DNA of 64,000 nt from Lacunisphaera limnophila. Its GTDB lineage: Bacteria; Verrucomicrobiota; Verrucomicrobiia; Opitutales; Opitutaceae. Both the position numbers and the translations under genes were made by a program. This document shows positions 13,873-23,022 of this stretch, one piece after another (position 1 is the stretch's first letter; every line of letters begins with the position of its first letter). Under the pieces are notes generated by a model. The model did not search any database and was not told where the DNA came from. It saw only the letters and a program-made list of their open reading frames with translations. The stretch lies in the NCBI RefSeq assembly GCF_001746835.1, contig NZ_CP016094.1, positions 3,239,501-3,303,500 on the forward strand, written 5' to 3'.

Positions 13873-15327
13873 ATGTTGCCCGCCCACCGTACCCGCTTGT
13901 ATTGGTTTCTGGCGTTGCTCGGGCTGGTGCTGGGGACCGGCCTGGCGGTCCGGTACTGGGTGGGCGGTTATGTGGTGCGCTCGGTGCTGCGGATGGCTGG
14001 GGCGGCCGAGATCCGGCACGGGGCCATTCGGGCGACGCCGTGGCGGGTGGAGATTGAGAATCTGAATTTCAAAATCCGGAGCCAGTCCTTTGCCGCGGGG
14101 CGGGTCACGCTCCAGCGCGCGAACTGGTGGATGGCCTCGCTCGGCGATGTGCAGGTCGCGGGGGCGCGCATCCCGGTGGTGCTCGACGGCTCGCAGGTGG
14201 ATCCGTGGAACTGGGCCACCTACGAGGACGGCGGGCTGGGGGACGAACCGGTGCCCCCGCCATTCCGCTCGCTGCAGCTGGAGGGGGAATTGCTCGTGCG
14301 CATGGCCAACCTGCCGGACCGGCCGGTGCGGGTGACGCTGGAGAGCCAGCCGAAGAGCGCCGCGTCGTGGGTGGGCAGCCTCGTGGCCGAGGGCGAGGGG
14401 TTCCGGCTGGCAGGTGGCGGCGCGTTGCTGCGGGCCGGGCAGGAACTTGATTTTCAGGTGCTGAGCGCGGAGTTGGACCTGGCGGTGTGGTCCGGCCAGA
14501 TCCAGCGCCTGGTCCCGCTGCCGGGCGGACCGTGGGAACTCGGCGGCAGGCTGACCGGCGTGGCGGAGGGCAAGGTGACCGCGAAACGGTTTGCCGCCAC
14601 GGCGCGCGTGAACCTGCGCGAGGGCCGGATGGGCGGAGGGAAGGAAGACATCGCGGTGACAGGAGCGGAGGCGGAGCTCGAGTTTTCCGACCTGTGGAAG
14701 CTGCGGACCAAGTTCGGGGCCCTGCGAGTCGCCGATCTGCGGATCGGACGTCTCCCCCTGCGCGCGGTCACGGCGGATTTTGGCCTCTGGGACGGCACCC
14801 AAATCCGGGTGAAGCGCGCGGAAGCGACTGCTCTGGGCGGGCGGGTCACGGCGGAGGATTTCAACTACCAACTGAATGAACGCAGCCTCGCGCTGGGGTT
14901 GCGCGTGGCGGACGTACGCGCGGCGGACTTGCTGGCCTTGACCGCCGGGGTGACGCCGCGGCTGTCCGGCCGGGTCTCGGGTGATCTCCCGCTGCGGATC
15001 CAGGGCGATGGCGTGCGGGTCAGCGGTGGCGGGCTGGCCCTCCAGCCGGGCCAAGGGGCGGAGCTCCAGCTCAACGCCGCCGCGTTGTTGCGCTCCGGCG
15101 CACCGATGTCCGCGGCGACCGCGGGCGTGCTCAAGGCGGCGGGATCGGCGAGTGTGGTGCTGCGGCTGGATCAGCTGCAGTTTGAGGTGCGACCGCCGGG
15201 GCTGCCCTTGGGCACCTCCGCGCGCGTGCGGGTGGCGGGCCGGGTGGATGGAATCCCGGTGGAGTTTACCTATCAGGTGAATGGCGCCGTGGAGCGATTC
15301 CTGCGCATCCTACCCGCCCGGCGCTAG
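13873..15327 (+). CDS. YdbH-like envelope protein (paralogue 1)
   Basis: 484 aa with an N-terminal membrane anchor (YWFLALLGLVLGTGLAV). The body is a long beta-rich domain with the C-terminal pattern SGRVSGDLPLRIQGDGV, typical of YdbH-like/AsmA-related proteins that bridge the inner and outer membranes. It is clearly paralogous to 21547-23022: both share an AG(A)xEIR element, then RVxLxRAxWW and SLG near residues 70-90. E. coli YdbH is far longer (about 880 aa). No ynbE-like or ydbL-like gene follows this copy. The next gene converges on it 9 bases downstream. Confidence 0.65.
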   Translation: MLPAHRTRLYWFLALLGLVLGTGLAVRYWVGGYVVRSVLRMAGAAEIRHGAIRATPWRVEIENLNFKIRSQSFAAGRVTLQRANWWMASLGDVQVAGARIPVVLDGSQVDPWNWATYEDGGLGDEPVPPPFRSLQLEGELLVRMANLPDRPVRVTLESQPKSAASWVGSLVAEGEGFRLAGGGALLRAGQELDFQVLSAELDLAVWSGQIQRLVPLPGGPWELGGRLTGVAEGKVTAKRFAATARVNLREGRMGGGKEDIAVTGAEAELEFSDLWKLRTKFGALRVADLRIGRLPLRAVTADFGLWDGTQIRVKRAEATALGGRVTAEDFNYQLNERSLALGLRVADVRAADLLALTAGVTPRLSGRVSGDLPLRIQGDGVRVSGGGLALQPGQGAELQLNAAALLRSGAPMSAATAGVLKAAGSASVVLRLDQLQFEVRPPGLPLGTSARVRVAGRVDGIPVEFTYQVNGAVERFLRILPARR

Positions 15328-16022: not shown

Positions 16023-16442
16023 TCAGAGCTTGAACGGCACGACCACCTCAAGCGGGGCGTAACCGGCGGCGCTGAGCAGCACCTTGTCGCCACCGGAAAG
16101 ATCCTTCACCGTCATCACCGCACCGGCCGCCACCGTCTGCTCGGGCAGCACCCGCGCCTTGTCCATGGCGTGATGCACGACGCTGAGCAGGACCTTGCCG
16201 CTCACGGTGAGCGCGTCATGGCCATCGTTTTTCAGGGTCAGCACGAAGGGCGTGCCCTCGGTGCCTTCCACTTTGGCGAAAGTGGCGGAGAGCGGCAGGG
16301 CCTTGTCGGCCAGCGGCTGCAGGGTCATCGCATCGGCGGCCACGACGGCGGGGGCAGCGACGAGGGTGAGGAGGGTGGCGCAGGACAGGACGAGCAGCGC
16401 GCGGGAGCGCGCAGCGAGACGGACGGACTTTGGGTTGTTCAT
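16023..16442 (-). CDS. Hypothetical secreted protein
   Basis: 139 aa from ATG at 16442 (MNNPKSVRL) with a signal peptide (about residues 14-36, LLVLSCATLLTLVAAPAVVAAD). The mature domain of about 100 residues looks like a small beta-sandwich (TPFVLTLKNDGHDALTVSG, then a C-terminal APLEVVVPFKL). I do not recognise a family. It follows the glycine-rich protein gene on the same strand after a 94-base gap and ends at a good terminator, so it may be the last gene of the sigma/kinase cluster. Confidence 0.65.
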   Translation of the reverse strand: MNNPKSVRLAARSRALLVLSCATLLTLVAAPAVVAADAMTLQPLADKALPLSATFAKVEGTEGTPFVLTLKNDGHDALTVSGKVLLSVVHHAMDKARVLPEQTVAAGAVMTVKDLSGGDKVLLSAAGYAPLEVVVPFKL

Positions 16443-16536: not shown

Positions 16537-17424
16537 TCAGGCGCGGACGGGCTGATGGGTGAGGCCCGGGGCGTGGAGGGTGACGGGGCTGCAGAGAAAC
16601 AGGATGGCGGCGGCCCCGGCATCAGCTTGAAAGCCGGGGATGTTCTGCTGTTCGCGGCCGCGATTGTAGGAACCGCCGCCGCCGCCCCCGCCGAGGGCGA
16701 TCCGTCCGCCGCCACCCCCGCCGCCGCTGAAGCCGCCGCCGCCGCCGGCTCCGGCCCCGAAGAAGGAGCCTCCGCCGCCGCCGCCATAGCCGCCGTCCCC
16801 GCCGAGGTATCCGCCGAAGCGGGCCCCCGCGCCACCCTCCCATTGCCGGCCCCCCTGACAGTAGGTCGGCCCCGAGCCGTTGGCGCCGATATCAAGCCAG
16901 CCGGTGCCGCCGCCGCCGCTGTAATAGCAGGGACCTTGATCACTGGTCCCGCCGAGCCCGTTGCGTCCGCCGGTGCCGGGGCCCTGGCCCGCATCCAGGC
17001 TCACTACCGCGTCACCGCCCGGTCCATTGCCGCCGCCGCCGCCGCCGCCGGCCACGAGGAGCGGCCACACGGGCAGGGTGCCGGTGCGGGTGCCGCTCCA
17101 GATAAATGTGCCACCGCCGCCGCCGCCGCCGCGCGTCGCCTCCGGCTCACGACCAGTGCCCAGGTCGAAGGCATCTGCAGAGCCCCCCAATGCGGGGACA
17201 TTGCGGCCCGGGAGTCCCGGCCGGCCCACGACGAGATGGATGATTTCGCCCTCCTTGAGATGAAACACCCCGCGGAGGAAGGCGCCCTTGCCCCCGCCCG
17301 CCAGGCCTTCGCCCCCGCCCTGGGCTCCCCGCGCCTCCAGCAGGTAGAGGCCGGACTCCGGCACGATGTAGAGTTGGAGATGGCCGCAGGCGCGGAATCG
17401 GACCGGGGGGATGATCTTGGGCAT
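16537..17424 (-). CDS. Glycine-rich protein with ALK/LTK-type glycine-rich domain
   Basis: 295 aa from ATG at 17424 (MPKIIPPVRF). The pattern matches the glycine-rich domain best known from ALK/LTK receptors and scattered bacterial proteins: YIVPESGLYLLEARGAQGGG, GGKGAFLRGVFHLKEG, IHLVVGRPG, then GGGGGGGTFIW and LLVAGGGGGGG. From about residue 110 on it is dominated by Gly runs encoded by GGC/GGT tracts. No obvious signal peptide is present, although a glycan- or surface-binding role would be expected from other members. It is the next gene downstream of the kinase and small frameshifted gene. The regulatory-like element at 17457-17494 lies 33 bases upstream. Confidence 0.75.
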   Translation of the reverse strand: MPKIIPPVRFRACGHLQLYIVPESGLYLLEARGAQGGGEGLAGGGKGAFLRGVFHLKEGEIIHLVVGRPGLPGRNVPALGGSADAFDLGTGREPEATRGGGGGGGTFIWSGTRTGTLPVWPLLVAGGGGGGGNGPGGDAVVSLDAGQGPGTGGRNGLGGTSDQGPCYYSGGGGTGWLDIGANGSGPTYCQGGRQWEGGAGARFGGYLGGDGGYGGGGGGSFFGAGAGGGGGFSGGGGGGGRIALGGGGGGGSYNRGREQQNIPGFQADAGAAAILFLCSPVTLHAPGLTHQPVRA

Positions 17425-17456
17425 GGGAGGAGCCGGCCTGAGTGGGCCGGCAACCC

Positions 17457-17494
17457 CCAATGCGTAACCGCGGCGGCAAAAGGGCCACCGCGGT
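17457..17494 (-). promoter_or_regulatory. Shared upstream element, copy A
   Basis: 38 bases that match 20783-20820 at 30 of 38 positions in the same orientation. The best conserved parts are CCAATGCG and GGCAAAAGGGCCA on the plus strand. This copy also forms a strong hairpin (17467-17477 with 17484-17494). It lies between the frameshifted small gene and the glycine-rich gene, 33 bases before the latter's start. A regulatory role is inferred from position and conservation only. Confidence 0.5.
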
Positions 17495-17511: not shown

Positions 17512-17936
17512 TCAGATCGGATCGTTGCGGATGGCGGGATCGATCAGCCCGATCTCCCCGGTGGCGGTGTTCTGCACGAGCAGGACGTAGCTGTAGCTCT
17601 TGCCCTTGTCCTGCTGGCGGTTGGCGTCGACCACACTGAGGCAATTGGGCGGCAGGTTGGACGCGGGGCTGCGGTTGATCGTGATGACCGGGAATTCAAA
17701 GGCCCCCACATCGGTGTCGGGTGCTTCCGAGTCGAAAGCCGCGCCGATGAAGACAAAGGCGGTGTTGGCGATCTGGAAGACCAGGTTCACCGGGGCGTTG
17801 CCCCGCACGATGACATTGCCGTTGCTGACGCTGATCCCGGGCACGGGATTCGGGATGGTGAAGATCGCGCTGATGGGGAACACGCCCCGAGCGGACGGAA
17901 TTGTGTGATGGTGATGTTGATGACGGCGGTGGTCAT
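17512..17936 (-). pseudogene. Small hypothetical gene with an apparent -1 frameshift
   Basis: An ATG at 17936 overlaps the kinase stop codon in an ATGA arrangement, which suggests translational coupling. Its frame reads MTTAVINITITQFRPLG and is then lost. One extra base in the C4 run near 17885-17888 (plus strand) would join it to a 123-codon frame continuing VFPISAIFTIPNPVPG to DPAIRNDPI at 17512. The joined protein would be about 141 aa with a beta-rich look; no family is recognised. The cause may be a sequencing or assembly homopolymer error, a true mutation or programmed frameshifting. A standalone GTG start at 17883 is the alternative. Confidence 0.55.
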
Positions 17937-20764
17937 GGCGGCTGACTTGGGTTGGAGGTGGCGGACGATTCGGCCTCCGCGAGGTCCGCCCGGTTGAGCG
18001 GGTCGACGGAGTGGTAACCGAAAGTTTTCAGGAGGTCGGCGGGCGGTCGCGCCGCCGCGGCCAGACCGGCGAGCCGGGCGGACACCGCCGCAGGCTCCAG
18101 CAGGCGCCAGTCATGGCTGCCCGGGGTGAACGGTATGATCCGGGCATAGGCGTCGCGCCACAGTGCCTGGGCCGCATCGTCTTGGCCGGTTGCGCGGGCC
18201 ACGCGGCCGGCGAGGATCGCGACGAGGGCGGCCTCGTGGCGCACCCAGGGATCCGCGCGGTTGTCCTGCAGAAGGCGTTCGAGGATTTCCCGCGCGGCTT
18301 CGAGTGAAGCCCGCGCTGAGGGGAAACGGCCGGCCGCGAAGTCCAACCGGGCGGACTGCCGGTGGGCCGCGGCCAGCAGCCGGGCAAAGTTCAGCGACGC
18401 GGGCTCGGCCGTCGCCAACGGGGTGGCGGCCGCCTGCGCCTCAGCCAGGAGAAGCGAAGCCTCCGTGGTCGAGCCCGCATCGAGGAGAAGCGCGATTTGA
18501 TGCAGGTTGAGGCTGACCAGCGCGGAAAGGCGGGTCCGGTTGCTGCGGTCCTCCGCCACCAGGGCGCGCTGCCGCGTGCTGGCCTCGGCGAACAGCTGCG
18601 CCGCTTCCGCCCGGTGTCCCTGGACAGCGAGCACGCGGGCCCGGAAAGTCACGGCATGGATTTCTTCCTGTCGCCAGCGGACTACTGTCGGCTCGTCCCG
18701 CGCCAGCGCGGCGTAGCGGGCGGCCATGGCGGTGTAATGTCCGGCCGCATCCGCGAATCGTCCGTCGCGTTCCGCGACACTGCCCAGCCAGGACGCCACG
18801 TCCGCGAGGCTGTACCGCAGTTCGCCGTCGCCCGGCTGCGCCGCGAGGAGCGGCTCCAGGAGCGCCTGCTCGGCCAGGAAGCCCACCCGCGCGGCGGCGA
18901 GATTGCCGGTGTCGGTGTCGAGCACCGCCAGGTTGTGATGGGCGTAGACGGCCTCCAGCTGGGCGCGGGCCGTCGGCCCCTCGGCGGCGCCGAGGGCGCG
19001 GGCCGTGTCGCGGTAGCGGAGCAGCCACTCCCGCTGGGAATCCCGGTCGCCCCGGCGGCGGGCGGCCAGCCCCAGCCAGAACTCGGCCTGGCCGCGTTCG
19101 AAGAGCATGTCACCGTTGGCCGGGTGGCGGACGGCGAGGGCGGCGGCCCGGTCGAAGGCCGCGGTGAAGGCCTGCCCGGCGGCCGGAAAATCGCCCTGCT
19201 CGAGGCGGACCTCGCCGAGTTGGGTCAGCGCCTTGGCCTGACGGGTCAGTGCGGCGTCGCTCAGGTCGCGCGGATCCAGCGCGGTGAAGTAGGCGAGGGC
19301 CTTGTCGCCGACGGCCGCGAGGGGTTCCAGCCGGCCGGACTTTTGCAACTCCGTGCGGAAATCACCCAGCATGAAGGTCAGCAGGTCCTCGGCCTGGGCC
19401 TGGCGGCGCTGCGCATCGGTGCGGGCGAGGGTCTCTGCCTGCTGCGCGGCCCGCGCGAGGTCGCGCTCGGCGGCGGCCACCTGCTCGGCCGCGCGGGCCC
19501 GGCGGGCCTGCTGCGTGCTGGCGACAATGCCCCCGATCAGGCTGACGGTCACGAGCGCGGCACTGGCACAAGCCAGGCGGTGCCGGGCGGTGAATTTGCG
19601 GAGCCGGTAAACGGTGGAGGGCGGGCGGGCCTCGACGGGTTCCTGGCGCAGGTGACGACGCACGTCCTCGGCGAGGGCGGCGGCGGTGCCGTAGCGCCGG
19701 TCGCGGTCCTTTTCCAGGCAGCGCATCACGATCCAATCGAGGTCCCCGCGCAGGTCCGCCGTCAGCCGCGGGGCGGGGGCGCCACGCAAGCGGGCGACGC
19801 TGCGGCGATCGCTGTCGGTCAGCGTCCCGATGACGGTCGAGGGCCGCGGGGGCTCCACCTCGCGGATGATGCGCCGGATCTCGAGCAGGCCGGCGCGCAC
19901 GAGTTCCTTGGGATCGTAAGGGGGCCGGCCGGTCAGCAGCTCGTAGAGGAGCACGCCCAAGGCATAGACGTCGCTGCGGGTGTCGATGTCGACGTCGCGC
20001 AGCTCGGCTTGTTCCGGGCTCATGTAGGCGGGCGTGCCGACAAGCAGTCCCATCTCGGTGAACAGGCTTTCGTCGCTGAGCCGGCCGGCGGTGGCTTTGG
20101 CGATGCCGAAGTCGATGAGCTTGGGGGCCGGCTGGCCGTCCCGGAGCGCAACGAGGATGTTCGAGGGTTTGAGGTCGCGGTGGATGATGCCCCGTTGGTG
20201 GGCGTGTTGGAGGGCGACGCAGACCCGGGCGAACAGCTCCAGGCGCCCGGCCATGGGCAGGCTGTGTTCGTCGCAAAACCGCGTGATGGGGATGCCCTCG
20301 ACGTATTCCATCACGAAATACGGCCGGCCGGCGGCCGTGGTGCCGGCGTCGTAAAGGCGGGCGATGTCGGGGTGGGTCAGCAGGGCCAGCGTCTGGCGCT
20401 CGCCCTCGAACCGGGCGATGACTCGCTGCGAATCCATGCCGGGCTTGATGACCTTGAGGGCCACGGTGCGTCGCAGGGGCGTGGTCTGCTCGGCCAGCCA
20501 GACCACCCCGCAGCCGCCCTCGCCGAGGCGCTGGCGCAGGGTGTACGGACCGATGACCGTGCCCGGGGCCTCGGTGGCCGGCTCTGGGGGGCGCGCGGTG
20601 ACGGGCTGTTCAAGGAAACTGCGTGCGGCGTCGTGCGCGCCGAGCAGGGCGGTGAGGCGGGCGAGTCGGACCGGATCACCTGCGCAGGCGCGCGCCAGGT
20701 AGGCGGCCCGCGCGGTGGCGGGCAGCTCCAGGGCTTCGGCAAAAATGTCCTCGTCGCGGTTCAA
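17933..20764 (-). CDS. Serine/threonine protein kinase with transmembrane segment and TPR-like region
   Basis: 943 aa from a TTG start at 20764. The kinase domain (about residues 70-350) has all catalytic motifs: GEGGCGVVW loop, VALKVIK lysine, HRDLKPSN, LIDFGIAK and TPAYMSPEQ. One transmembrane helix follows (ACASAALVTVSLIGGIVAS, about residue 395). Then comes an Ala-rich coiled segment and a C-terminal region of about 450 residues of TPR-like helices, probably extracytoplasmic. It lies 68 bases downstream of an ECF sigma gene and ends in an ATGA overlap with the next frame. This order is typical of sigma/kinase pairs in Planctomycetes and Verrucomicrobia, where the kinase may control the sigma factor. 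Confidence 0.92.
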   Translation of the reverse strand: MNRDEDIFAEALELPATARAAYLARACAGDPVRLARLTALLGAHDAARSFLEQPVTARPPEPATEAPGTVIGPYTLRQRLGEGGCGVVWLAEQTTPLRRTVALKVIKPGMDSQRVIARFEGERQTLALLTHPDIARLYDAGTTAAGRPYFVMEYVEGIPITRFCDEHSLPMAGRLELFARVCVALQHAHQRGIIHRDLKPSNILVALRDGQPAPKLIDFGIAKATAGRLSDESLFTEMGLLVGTPAYMSPEQAELRDVDIDTRSDVYALGVLLYELLTGRPPYDPKELVRAGLLEIRRIIREVEPPRPSTVIGTLTDSDRRSVARLRGAPAPRLTADLRGDLDWIVMRCLEKDRDRRYGTAAALAEDVRRHLRQEPVEARPPSTVYRLRKFTARHRLACASAALVTVSLIGGIVASTQQARRARAAEQVAAAERDLARAAQQAETLARTDAQRRQAQAEDLLTFMLGDFRTELQKSGRLEPLAAVGDKALAYFTALDPRDLSDAALTRQAKALTQLGEVRLEQGDFPAAGQAFTAAFDRAAALAVRHPANGDMLFERGQAEFWLGLAARRRGDRDSQREWLLRYRDTARALGAAEGPTARAQLEAVYAHHNLAVLDTDTGNLAAARVGFLAEQALLEPLLAAQPGDGELRYSLADVASWLGSVAERDGRFADAAGHYTAMAARYAALARDEPTVVRWRQEEIHAVTFRARVLAVQGHRAEAAQLFAEASTRQRALVAEDRSNRTRLSALVSLNLHQIALLLDAGSTTEASLLLAEAQAAATPLATAEPASLNFARLLAAAHRQSARLDFAAGRFPSARASLEAAREILERLLQDNRADPWVRHEAALVAILAGRVARATGQDDAAQALWRDAYARIIPFTPGSHDWRLLEPAAVSARLAGLAAAARPPADLLKTFGYHSVDPLNRADLAEAESSATSNPSQPP

Positions 20765-20832: not shown

Positions 20833-21459
20833 TCAGCCGCGGAGGCGCTGGACTTCGTGGTAGAGCCAGGTGCGGGCGTAGACCCAGTCGCGCTTGGCGG
20901 TGCGGACGGAGATGCCGAGCACCTCGGCGGACTCCTCCAGGGTGAGGCCGATGAAATAGCGTTGTTTCACCAGGTCGGCCTTGCGCGGGTCGTGGGCGGC
21001 CAGGGCGTCGAGCGCGTCGTTGATCAGCAGGAGCTCGCGGTCATCGGTGGCCGCGGCGGGCAGGTCGAAGGCGGTGTCACTGGCGCTGAGTTTCTCGAGC
21101 TGGCCGCCGTGGCGGAGGGCGAGCTTGCGGCGGGCGTTGTCGATGAGGATGCGCCGCATGGCCTCGGCAGCGGCGGCGAAAAAGTGCGCGCGGTTGGCCC
21201 AGGCGGGTTGGTGTTCGCCCCCCAGCCGCAGCCAAGCCTCATGGACGAGGGCCGTGGCTTGGAGGGTCTGGCCCGGCGCCTCGCGGGCCATCCGGGCGGC
21301 CGCGAGGCGGCGCAGTTCGTCATAGACCAGGGGGAGCAGCACCTCCGCCGCCCGCGGGTCGGCCGGGTCAAGCCGCGGGAGAGGGGAGGGAGCTGCGTCG
21401 GGCTGCACGGGCCCGAGCGTGCATGGCCCCGGCGCAACCGGAAGACGAAAATCTGGCAT
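20833..21459 (-). CDS. ECF RNA polymerase sigma factor, TIGR02999-type
   Basis: 208 aa. Region 2 runs from about residue 38 (LLPLVYDELRRLAAARM) and includes TLQATALVHEAWLRL. Region 4 (about 150-205) has DLVKQRYFIGLTLEESAEVLGIS and a DNA-binding helix TAKRDWVYARTWLY. This is the TIGR02999/Sig-70_X6 type. The acidic DAED-like motif of region 2.2 is missing and threonines 65 and 69 lie in its place. No anti-sigma gene is present; a Ser/Thr kinase gene follows. The leading 30 residues are poorly conserved, so the true start may be internal. Confidence 0.92.
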   Translation of the reverse strand: MPDFRLPVAPGPCTLGPVQPDAAPSPLPRLDPADPRAAEVLLPLVYDELRRLAAARMAREAPGQTLQATALVHEAWLRLGGEHQPAWANRAHFFAAAAEAMRRILIDNARRKLALRHGGQLEKLSASDTAFDLPAAATDDRELLLINDALDALAAHDPRKADLVKQRYFIGLTLEESAEVLGISVRTAKRDWVYARTWLYHEVQRLRG

Positions 21460-21546: not shown

Positions 21547-23022
21547 ATGAACCTGACCCTTTCTCGATCCAGGCTGCTCATGTCAGCGCTGATCCTGGCC
21601 GTCCTGCTGCTGGTCGCGGCCGTCGCGGCGCGGCTGTTCCTGACCGGGCTTGCCTTTGACGCGGTGCTCAAGCACGCGGGAGCGTCGGAGATCCGGTTTG
21701 AAGTCACGCAGGCATCGCTATGGCAGGTCGTGATGAAGGATGTCGGATTCCTGCTGGACCTGCAGCCGTTCACCGCGGAGCGGGTGTCGCTCGAGCGGGC
21801 GCACTGGTGGACGCCCTCGCTGGGCTCGCTGCGCGTCGAGTCGGCGCGGGTGCCGATCCGCCTCCATGATCCCGCCCGGTCTCCGGCACCCGAACGGAAG
21901 CCGGCGGGGGCGGTGATCCTTCCCTTTGAAGAAATCTCGATCGACGGGCAGGTCGTCATCCAGGCCGATGGACAGGCGGATCAGGCCCTGACGGTCACGA
22001 TTGAGGCCCGGCCGGGGCCGGGAAAAATCTGGGCGGGCAGCGCGCGGGTGAGCGCCCCGGGCTTGGCCGGGCGCGGGGAGGGCACCTACGACTTGGCGTC
22101 CGAAGCTCTGGTTTTCCGGGTGCCGGAACTGGCGCTCGATCTCAAACCCTGGGCCGCGTTTGCGCAGCAGGTCCTGCCGTTGCCCGAGAATGACTGGACG
22201 GTGGAAGGTCAAGTCAGCGGCAGTCTCGAGGGCCGCTGGGCGGACGGGGCGTTGACCGGGACCGGGCGCGTGAGTTGGCGTGACGGCCGGGCAACCTCGA
22301 CCAAGCAGGCCATTACCGCGACCGGCATCGAGGCCGATCTGGAACTTTCTGACTTGGCCCAGCTGGTGGGCAAGGCCGGCACCGTGCGCATCCGCGAAGT
22401 GCAGACGGGCAAGCTCACCCTGAGCGCCTTGGCGGCGGATTTCACGATGGCGGGGATGGATCACCTCACCGTGAACCACGCCACCCTGGAGACGCTGGGG
22501 GGGCGGGTAACCGCGGAACCTTTCCGCCTGGTGCCGAGCCAGGCGGAGTTGGATGCGGTCTTTCGCGTGGAGGGCATCCAGGTCGAGCAGGTGATGGCGT
22601 TGACGGAATCCCTGCCGGCCAAAGCGACCGGACGGGTGAACGGGCGCGTACCGGTGCGCCTCACCAAGGAGGGCTTGCGCCTGGGGACCGGCTGGCTCGG
22701 GCTGATGCCCGGCGTCCAGGCGGAGATCGAATTCAACGCCAAAGGGCTGCTCACCGGCGGGGCATCCGCCGGCACGCCGACCTTTGCGGTGCTGCAAAAG
22801 ATCGAATCCGGCCTGCTCAGGCTGCGAATCAGCGAGTTGCGCCTCGATATCCGCCCGACCGATGCCCCCGAGGGGCGCTCGGCCCAGCTGCACCTGAAAG
22901 GCGAACCGGTCGATCGCGAGGTCAAGGCGCCGGTCATCCTCGATCTCAACGTCAACGGGCCGCTGGAGAAACTCATCAACCTGGGCATGGATTCGCGCTT
23001 GAGCGTCGGAACCAAACCCTGA
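21547..23022 (+). CDS. YdbH-like envelope protein (paralogue 2, with YnbE and YdbL partners)
   Basis: 491 aa from ATG at 21547 (MNLTLSRSRLLMSALILAV), with an N-terminal membrane anchor followed by a long beta-rich domain. The C-terminal third contains KATGRVNGRVPVRLTKEG, the YdbH-like signature. It is paralogous to 13873-15327. In E. coli, YdbH and the lipoprotein YnbE form an intermembrane bridge for lipid homeostasis, with YdbL as a periplasmic helper. The same gene order follows here (23179 and 23382), which supports the assignment. It is divergent from the ECF sigma gene with an 87-base gap. A longer in-frame extension over the sigma gene was rejected. Confidence 0.72.
   Translation: MNLTLSRSRLLMSALILAVLLLVAAVAARLFLTGLAFDAVLKHAGASEIRFEVTQASLWQVVMKDVGFLLDLQPFTAERVSLERAHWWTPSLGSLRVESARVPIRLHDPARSPAPERKPAGAVILPFEEISIDGQVVIQADGQADQALTVTIEARPGPGKIWAGSARVSAPGLAGRGEGTYDLASEALVFRVPELALDLKPWAAFAQQVLPLPENDWTVEGQVSGSLEGRWADGALTGTGRVSWRDGRATSTKQAITATGIEADLELSDLAQLVGKAGTVRIREVQTGKLTLSALAADFTMAGMDHLTVNHATLETLGGRVTAEPFRLVPSQAELDAVFRVEGIQVEQVMALTESLPAKATGRVNGRVPVRLTKEGLRLGTGWLGLMPGVQAEIEFNAKGLLTGGASAGTPTFAVLQKIESGLLRLRISELRLDIRPTDAPEGRSAQLHLKGEPVDREVKAPVILDLNVNGPLEKLINLGMDSRLSVGTKP

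Follow-up and report, generated by a model that had tools for sequence, protein, structure and literature searches.

How might an ECF-type sigma factor be governed when it lacks the acidic motif of region 2.2 and has no recognisable anti-sigma partner? This is the question raised by a gene in the window analysed here – a stretch of 64,000 nucleotides from Lacunisphaera limnophila – and the first-pass annotation had offered an answer: that the Ser/Thr kinase encoded next door supplies the missing negative charge by phosphorylating threonine, as in the EcfP/PknT pair of Vibrio parahaemolyticus. Our data indicate that the pair is most likely another example of this known, little-studied form of phospho-control.

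The reading frame that had been reported, without a strand, as a sigma factor is real and lies on the minus strand (Table 1). It scores 191.8 bits against TIGR02999 (cut-off 126.15) and 172.9 bits against PF07638 (cut-off 21.1). Translation probably starts at the GTG at 21408, giving a protein of 191 residues, because the codon of V18 is ATG, GTG or TTG in an alignment of 13 sequences (the window and 12 hand-picked close relatives) and because one relative, G016, has an in-frame stop just upstream of the equivalent codon. Residue numbers here are those of the 208-residue form and fall by 17 in the shorter one, so that Thr65 and Thr69 become Thr48 and Thr52. The host genome (4.2 Mb, one contig) carries a single gene of the TIGR02999 type, seven more sigma-factor genes scoring below the TIGR02999 cut-off. 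An AF2 model of the protein (57 sequences) has a mean pLDDT of 83.6; with this model Foldseek ranks ECF structures at the top, yet none with an E value under 0.048, which may reflect a different placement of the two domains.

Table 1. Features of the sigma–kinase locus (positions counted from the first nucleotide of the window).
Feature	Position	Strand	Remarks
ECF-type sigma factor reading frame	20833..21459	minus	208 aa; TIGR02999 and PF07638 matches
Probable real sigma gene	20833–21408	minus	191 aa; GTG start at V18
Conserved bipartite element, candidate cassette promoter	21406..21451	minus	T-rich box, 15–19 nt, CAnnnT, then GTG
Thr65 codon	21265..21267	minus	Conserved, yet outside the DAED-equivalent positions
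Q67-A68-T69-A70, where region 2.2 usually has the acidic DAED	21250..21261	minus	170 relatives aligned
Thr69 codon	21253–21255	minus	
Hanks-type Ser/Thr kinase	17933..20764	minus	943 aa, TTG start assumed; PF00069
IIDP protein, third cassette gene	17512..17883	minus	123 aa, start uncertain
Glycine-rich protein, ALK/LTK GRD match, fourth cassette gene	16537..17460	minus	Probable start M at 17424
Small protein	16023..16442	minus	Signal-peptide-like N-terminus (read by eye)

A critical issue is the nature of region 2.2. The helix described by the first-pass annotation is present, reading TLQATALVHEAWLRL, positions 65 and 69 occupied by Thr and no acidic residue between E60 and E74; within it (T65-L-Q67-A-T69-A70-L-V-H73-E74) positions 67–70 align where canonical factors carry D-A-E-D. 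The AF2 model has helix 2.2 spanning residues 68–80, with Thr69 in its first turn. An acidic motif lying elsewhere in region 2.2 would have undone the argument and is ruled out, residues 61 to 73, before E74, containing none. Far from being peculiar to this protein, the motif is a trait of the TIGR02999/PF07638 family. We assembled 172 distinct relatives (window included) from loci with TIGR02999 or P0002 matches, a non-random sample, and counted motifs in 170, two members being left out whose fetched piece lacks region 2.2. Thr69 is kept in 166 of these 170 – the exceptions are A, A, E and H, and Ser occurs in none – and in 84 of 87 representatives whose mutual identity lies below 60%. Such family-wide conservation rules out a chance origin of the motif. 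An acid at positions 67–70 is absent from 147 of the 170 relatives and present in 23, of which 21 have a kinase near.

Two threonines had been put forward as phosphosites. Thr69 matches the known phosphothreonine; Thr65 falls outside the four-residue motif and is thus ruled out as the likely main site, position 65 holding T in 140 of 168 relatives and S in another 11. The six other ECF-like factors of the host genome that we compared have an acid at position 70 (6/6) and never Thr69 (0/6), in an alignment read by eye in which the program placed one gap otherwise and a seventh factor is unaligned at these positions. Five divergent relatives from the Planctomycetota search (L231, L232, L233, L234 and L235) read RWE-x-T-DVFQ, the same Thr flanked by acids, and have a kinase downstream.

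TIGR02999 matches above cut-off were obtained from 22 of 240 Verrucomicrobiota genomes sampled (completeness at least 90%; long flanks missing for a few rows) and, in the phylum to which a Planctomycetota contig belongs, from 21 of 59 (long flanks missing for 15 of 81 rows), and one genome holds 12 of them (long flanks missing for 7 of the 30 rows of that search). P0002 finds a strong match in 15 of 57 close relatives, the host included, with two more weak matches (E 3e-4 and 9e-4; long flanks again missing for a few rows).

The neighbouring kinase is also real. Its gene begins 68 nt past the sigma stop, if the TTG start is right, and its product scores 144.6 bits against PF00069. An N-terminal helical stretch is followed by the kinase domain (about 73–366), a transmembrane stretch (about 397–415) and an alpha-solenoid (about 503–933); the catalytic residues K104, E122, HRD 195–197, DFG 218–220 and SPE 249–251 are invariant in 15 aligned sequences, window included. 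The transmembrane stretch is the one strongly hydrophobic segment (hydropathy 2.18 for 397–415 against 1.32 for the next best) and divides the kinase domain from the C-terminal region. The claim that the C-terminus is TPR-like calls for correction: a Pfam TPR match is absent, and the AF2 model (pTM 0.54) predicts helices stacked in a regular solenoid, with pLDDT of about 90 or more over most of the region from residue 530. C-terminal TPR arrays of Planctomycetota kinases are predicted to be mostly periplasmic, according to the available text of PMC11032199. That this region of the window kinase senses the signal is, on the strength of its predicted topology, only plausible.

The best Foldseek match of the window kinase is PknS (9eed), at 40% identity and E 3.6e-18 against 5e-13 for the next structure; the match covers the catalytic domain together with the stretch before it. 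A sequence search against solved structures gives the same outcome (205.3 bits for PknS, 154.8 for the next), as it does for a second kinase of the same type (212 bits against 148). Three PF00069 kinases and two PF13672 (PP2C-type) phosphatases are encoded in the host genome, and for the other two kinases PknS ranks 26th in one case and lies outside the best 60 of 441 in the other. By a yardstick of our own, the window kinase thus lies closer to PknS than to PknB-type kinases.

Pairing of sigma factor and kinase is general in the family. In 156 of 170 relatives the sigma domain has a kinase domain no more than 6 kb away; over all 172, the kinase follows on the same strand in 133 and lies upstream in 10, is encoded on the opposite strand in nine and is further off in four, none being seen in 13 and three defying assignment. 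Three related genomes (L116, L117 and L118), together with L144 and L213, keep Thr69 and show no kinase within about 6 kb. Over 130 pairs, similarity among sigma factors correlates with similarity among kinases (r 0.64, the highest of 500 permutations reaching 0.19). Within genomes, among the fetched pairs of four of them, the correlation reaches significance in one (11 pairs, r 0.88, p 0.0005) but fails to do so in the three with 6–7 pairs (p 0.09, 0.31 and 0.53). The reported absence of an anti-sigma gene is borne out: a Pfam scan of the eight neighbouring reading frames found no anti-sigma domain, and the locus thus departs from the canonical anti-sigma-regulated ECF arrangement.

Direct phosphorylation of a sigma factor as a means of activation has been reported, in the literature as far as it was accessible, for EcfP, EcfK and a Hyphomonas factor. 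The hosts of these are Proteobacteria. The locus is compared here with the first two, the work of Iyer et al. 2020 and the ECF classification of 2021 being cited by way of the accessible text of PMC8999054, PMC8103513 and PMC13147305. EcfP of V. parahaemolyticus, a member of ECF43, carries the motif STTA and is reported to be intrinsically inactive (PMC8999054, in the text available). The locus resembles EcfP/PknT in that DAED is replaced by an uncharged motif with Thr in the same place (STTA there, QATA here), in that a kinase gene lies next door, and in the absence of an anti-sigma factor. It differs in belonging to another phylum, and phosphorylation has been shown there whereas it is predicted here; the two are set side by side by motif, not by sequence alignment.

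For EcfK and PknS of Xanthomonas citri we draw on excerpts of PMC13147305. According to these, the ECF43 consensus is QTTA, with the Thr conserved in 88%, and EcfK reads QATE; the EcfK residues that PknS phosphorylates are T51 and four in the linker; T106 in the linker serves as a second site, and either T51 or T106 alone suffices; and a T51A variant, supplied on a multicopy plasmid, is functional in vivo, which its authors credit to several polar contacts. The window pair is like this one first in its kinase, which no solved structure matches more closely than PknS, by fold or by sequence, and second in the sigma factor, where Y29, R33, Q49, T51 and H55 of EcfK are identical to Y46, R50, Q67, T69 and H73. 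Five of the six EcfK residues named around the polymerase contact are thus matched, E52 being Ala here; the counterparts were found by spacing, with one inserted residue between two groups, and do not amount to an alignment. Differences are the Glu that follows the Thr in EcfK (Ala in the window sigma factor), the second EcfK phosphosite, and the C-terminal solenoid and further cassette genes of the window, which the excerpts do not describe for EcfK/PknS. Three traits of ECF43 – DAED absent, Thr at the third motif position, an adjacent Hanks-type kinase – are found at the locus, the sigma factor being a candidate member of that group. A scan of genome contigs toward EcfP and EcfK gave 20 loci, all from Verrucomicrobiota or Planctomycetota. 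A third likeness is to the TIGR02999/PF07638 factors that stand beside kinases in these two phyla: here the family match is full, the motif is of the TLQ[AP]TALVHEA type and the kinase is usually downstream, the difference being two further genes that occur in a small clade only.

These two genes follow the kinase and complete what we regard as a cassette. The first encodes a protein that we name IIDP, whose family, in an alignment of its copies, ends in G-x-IG-x-IDP-x-I and whose window copy has no NCBIfam or Pfam match at E 1. Family loci are 17512–17883 of the window and L088, L039, L041, L043, L092, L125 and L127. A profile built from nine copies near sigma genes and then run over whole genomes found IIDP in 6 of 57 close relatives and 6 of 240 phylum genomes – jointly 10 copies in nine genomes – with all 10 copies within 5 kb (0.3–4.7 kb) of a sigma match. 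Of 15 close relatives with a strong sigma match, 6 have IIDP, and of the 42 others none (p 0.00014); in the phylum sample, IIDP occurs in 6 of 22 sigma-positive genomes against none of 218 others (p 3e-7). The genomes are related, and both p values serve only as a guide.

The second encodes a glycine-rich protein that scores 29.3 bits (cut-off 24.5) against PF12810, the glycine-rich domain of ALK/LTK. Homologues lie near the sigma gene at L088, L090, L125, L127 and, weakly, L057. That of L090 (L090:4980-5918) also reaches PF12810, at 29.7 bits, and contains only 10% Gly, so that the match does not stem only from low complexity; those of L088, L125, L127 and L057 show no PF12810 match. A frequency of PF12810 over 240 genomes (2/240) proved unusable, the scan having missed the glycine-rich gene of the window itself.

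The order sigma, kinase, IIDP, glycine-rich protein is kept in G016. A gene for a small protein follows the glycine-rich gene in the window, and its homologue stands directly before the sigma gene in G016 and G020. Two paralogous YdbH-like genes (13873–15327 and 21547–23022) flank the cassette; the latter is followed by a DUF1318 gene, the same pair occurs in related genomes that have no cassette, and in G016 and G020, too, a YdbH-like gene stands divergently next to the sigma gene. Over all loci no general family apart from the kinase emerged as a recurrent neighbour: the largest neighbour cluster (38 loci) lies on the sigma strand in one of 39 cases and was dismissed as antisense reading frames. 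The pairing of sigma factor and kinase being known, it is their recurrent association with the IIDP and glycine-rich genes in one cassette that is new and constitutes the more novel part of our findings.

The cassette may have its own promoter. In 18 upstream regions an EM search recovered a T-rich box scoring 86, against 45.5–49.5 in six shuffled sets; the sequences are related and shuffling ignores kinship. By our own reading, about 12 of the 18 combine this box with a CAnnnT box, read by eye, that ends close to the start codon; the bipartite site occurs once in the window. The element may thus be the cassette promoter, the spacing of CAnnnT to the start codon suggesting a leaderless transcript. 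Word pairs gave a less clear result: those recovered from 42 upstream regions were G+C-rich and lay close to the most that shuffling produced (6 against 4–5).

Taken together, we consider it likely, by homology and by analogy to EcfP/PknT and EcfK/PknS, that the locus encodes an ECF sigma factor activated by phosphorylation and its cognate transmembrane Hanks-type kinase. The mechanism envisaged by the first-pass annotation is thus supported on three counts – the motif, the near-invariance of Thr69 and the PknS-like kinase – with phosphorylation itself a prediction. The unphosphorylated sigma factor would bind core RNA polymerase poorly, because Q-A-T-A replaces the acidic motif in the first turn of the region 2.2 helix. 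A signal, probably received by way of the extracytoplasmic helical solenoid, would turn the kinase on; the kinase would phosphorylate Thr69 (Thr52 by the probable start); and, judging from homologues, the negative charge of phosphothreonine opposite the beta-prime clamp would allow the holoenzyme to form. The holoenzyme would then transcribe its targets, plausibly its own cassette first, and one of the two PP2C-type phosphatases may reset the sigma factor.

While this account fits the known systems, the activity of the EcfK T51A variant means that a switch at a single site need not be the whole story. One alternative is that Thr69, in the first turn of helix 2.2, is structural, and that the kinase controls the sigma factor elsewhere, for example at linker residues Ser125, Ser127 and Thr129, much as at T106 of EcfK. 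Among the 170 motif-bearing relatives there are 11 in which no kinase is seen (five with one flank under 2.5 kb), and all 11 keep Thr69, so that the residue could have a structural role or answer to a kinase located elsewhere. One might predict that such members regain an acid at positions 67–70, a prediction not borne out (2 of 11 against 21 of 156 kinase-linked members, p 0.65). The linker offers a candidate site: column 127 of the alignment holds an acid, D or E, in 109 of 169 sequences (64%), S or T in 14% and any of the four in 78%, and the position of T106 is S/T/D/E in 76.9% of ECF43 in the excerpts of PMC13147305. The window sigma factor has Ser at 127, with Ser125 and Thr129 nearby, and these would fit a second phosphosite, the register to T106 being uncertain. 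Together with the sufficiency of T106 in EcfK, these points speak for a structural Thr69 with control through another site. Against it, replacement by Ser, Asp or Glu ought to be tolerated if the Thr were purely structural, whereas Ser is never found at 69 and an acid once in 170; Thr65, Thr173 and Thr187, by contrast, are replaced by Ser in 11, 32 and 19 members. The phosphothreonines reported for EcfP and EcfK, in the text available for each, are moreover the same motif residue. We regard this alternative as unlikely.

Less credible still, and in our view highly improbable, is a sigma factor that is competent unmodified, engaging polymerase through Y46, R50, Q67 and H73 and controlled mainly by its synthesis, with the kinase directed to other substrates. 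The T51A variant of EcfK and its several polar contacts would agree with such an arrangement, as would the conserved element upstream of the sigma gene; the proximity of a kinase in nearly every relative, the correlated similarities of the partners and the reported intrinsic inactivity of EcfP all argue against it. That an unrecognised anti-sigma factor such as IIDP holds the sigma factor, with the kinase acting on that protein, has the slimmest of chances: the IIDP copies found all have a sigma gene of the TIGR02999 family nearby, but with IIDP in nine searched genomes and the sigma family in 22 of 240 of the phylum sample alone it cannot be a general regulator, and none of the neighbouring reading frames scanned carries an anti-sigma domain.

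Returning to activation by phosphorylation, one may ask what it serves. As a tentative and on balance doubtful extension, we offer a compact signalling cassette built around sigma factor and kinase, with the IIDP and glycine-rich proteins as its private output or its partners. Once phosphorylated, the sigma factor would drive all four genes from one promoter, possibly as a leaderless message; the helical ectodomain of the kinase would have the glycine-rich protein as its ligand, its target or its product. Animals carry the ALK/LTK glycine-rich domain in the ALK receptor. Were the extension true, a bacterial kinase would be paired with a domain known from that receptor.

Open-licence literature, judged mostly from listings, yielded no experimentally studied TIGR02999 member from Verrucomicrobiota or Planctomycetota. 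In the factors examined from these phyla, some of them present in multiple copies per genome, a phospho-acceptor Thr is near-invariant. With a single-copy pair in a genome of 4.2 Mb that encodes three Hanks-type kinases, L. limnophila offers a simple place in which to test the mechanism, and the genes of the cassette are the first candidates for its regulon.
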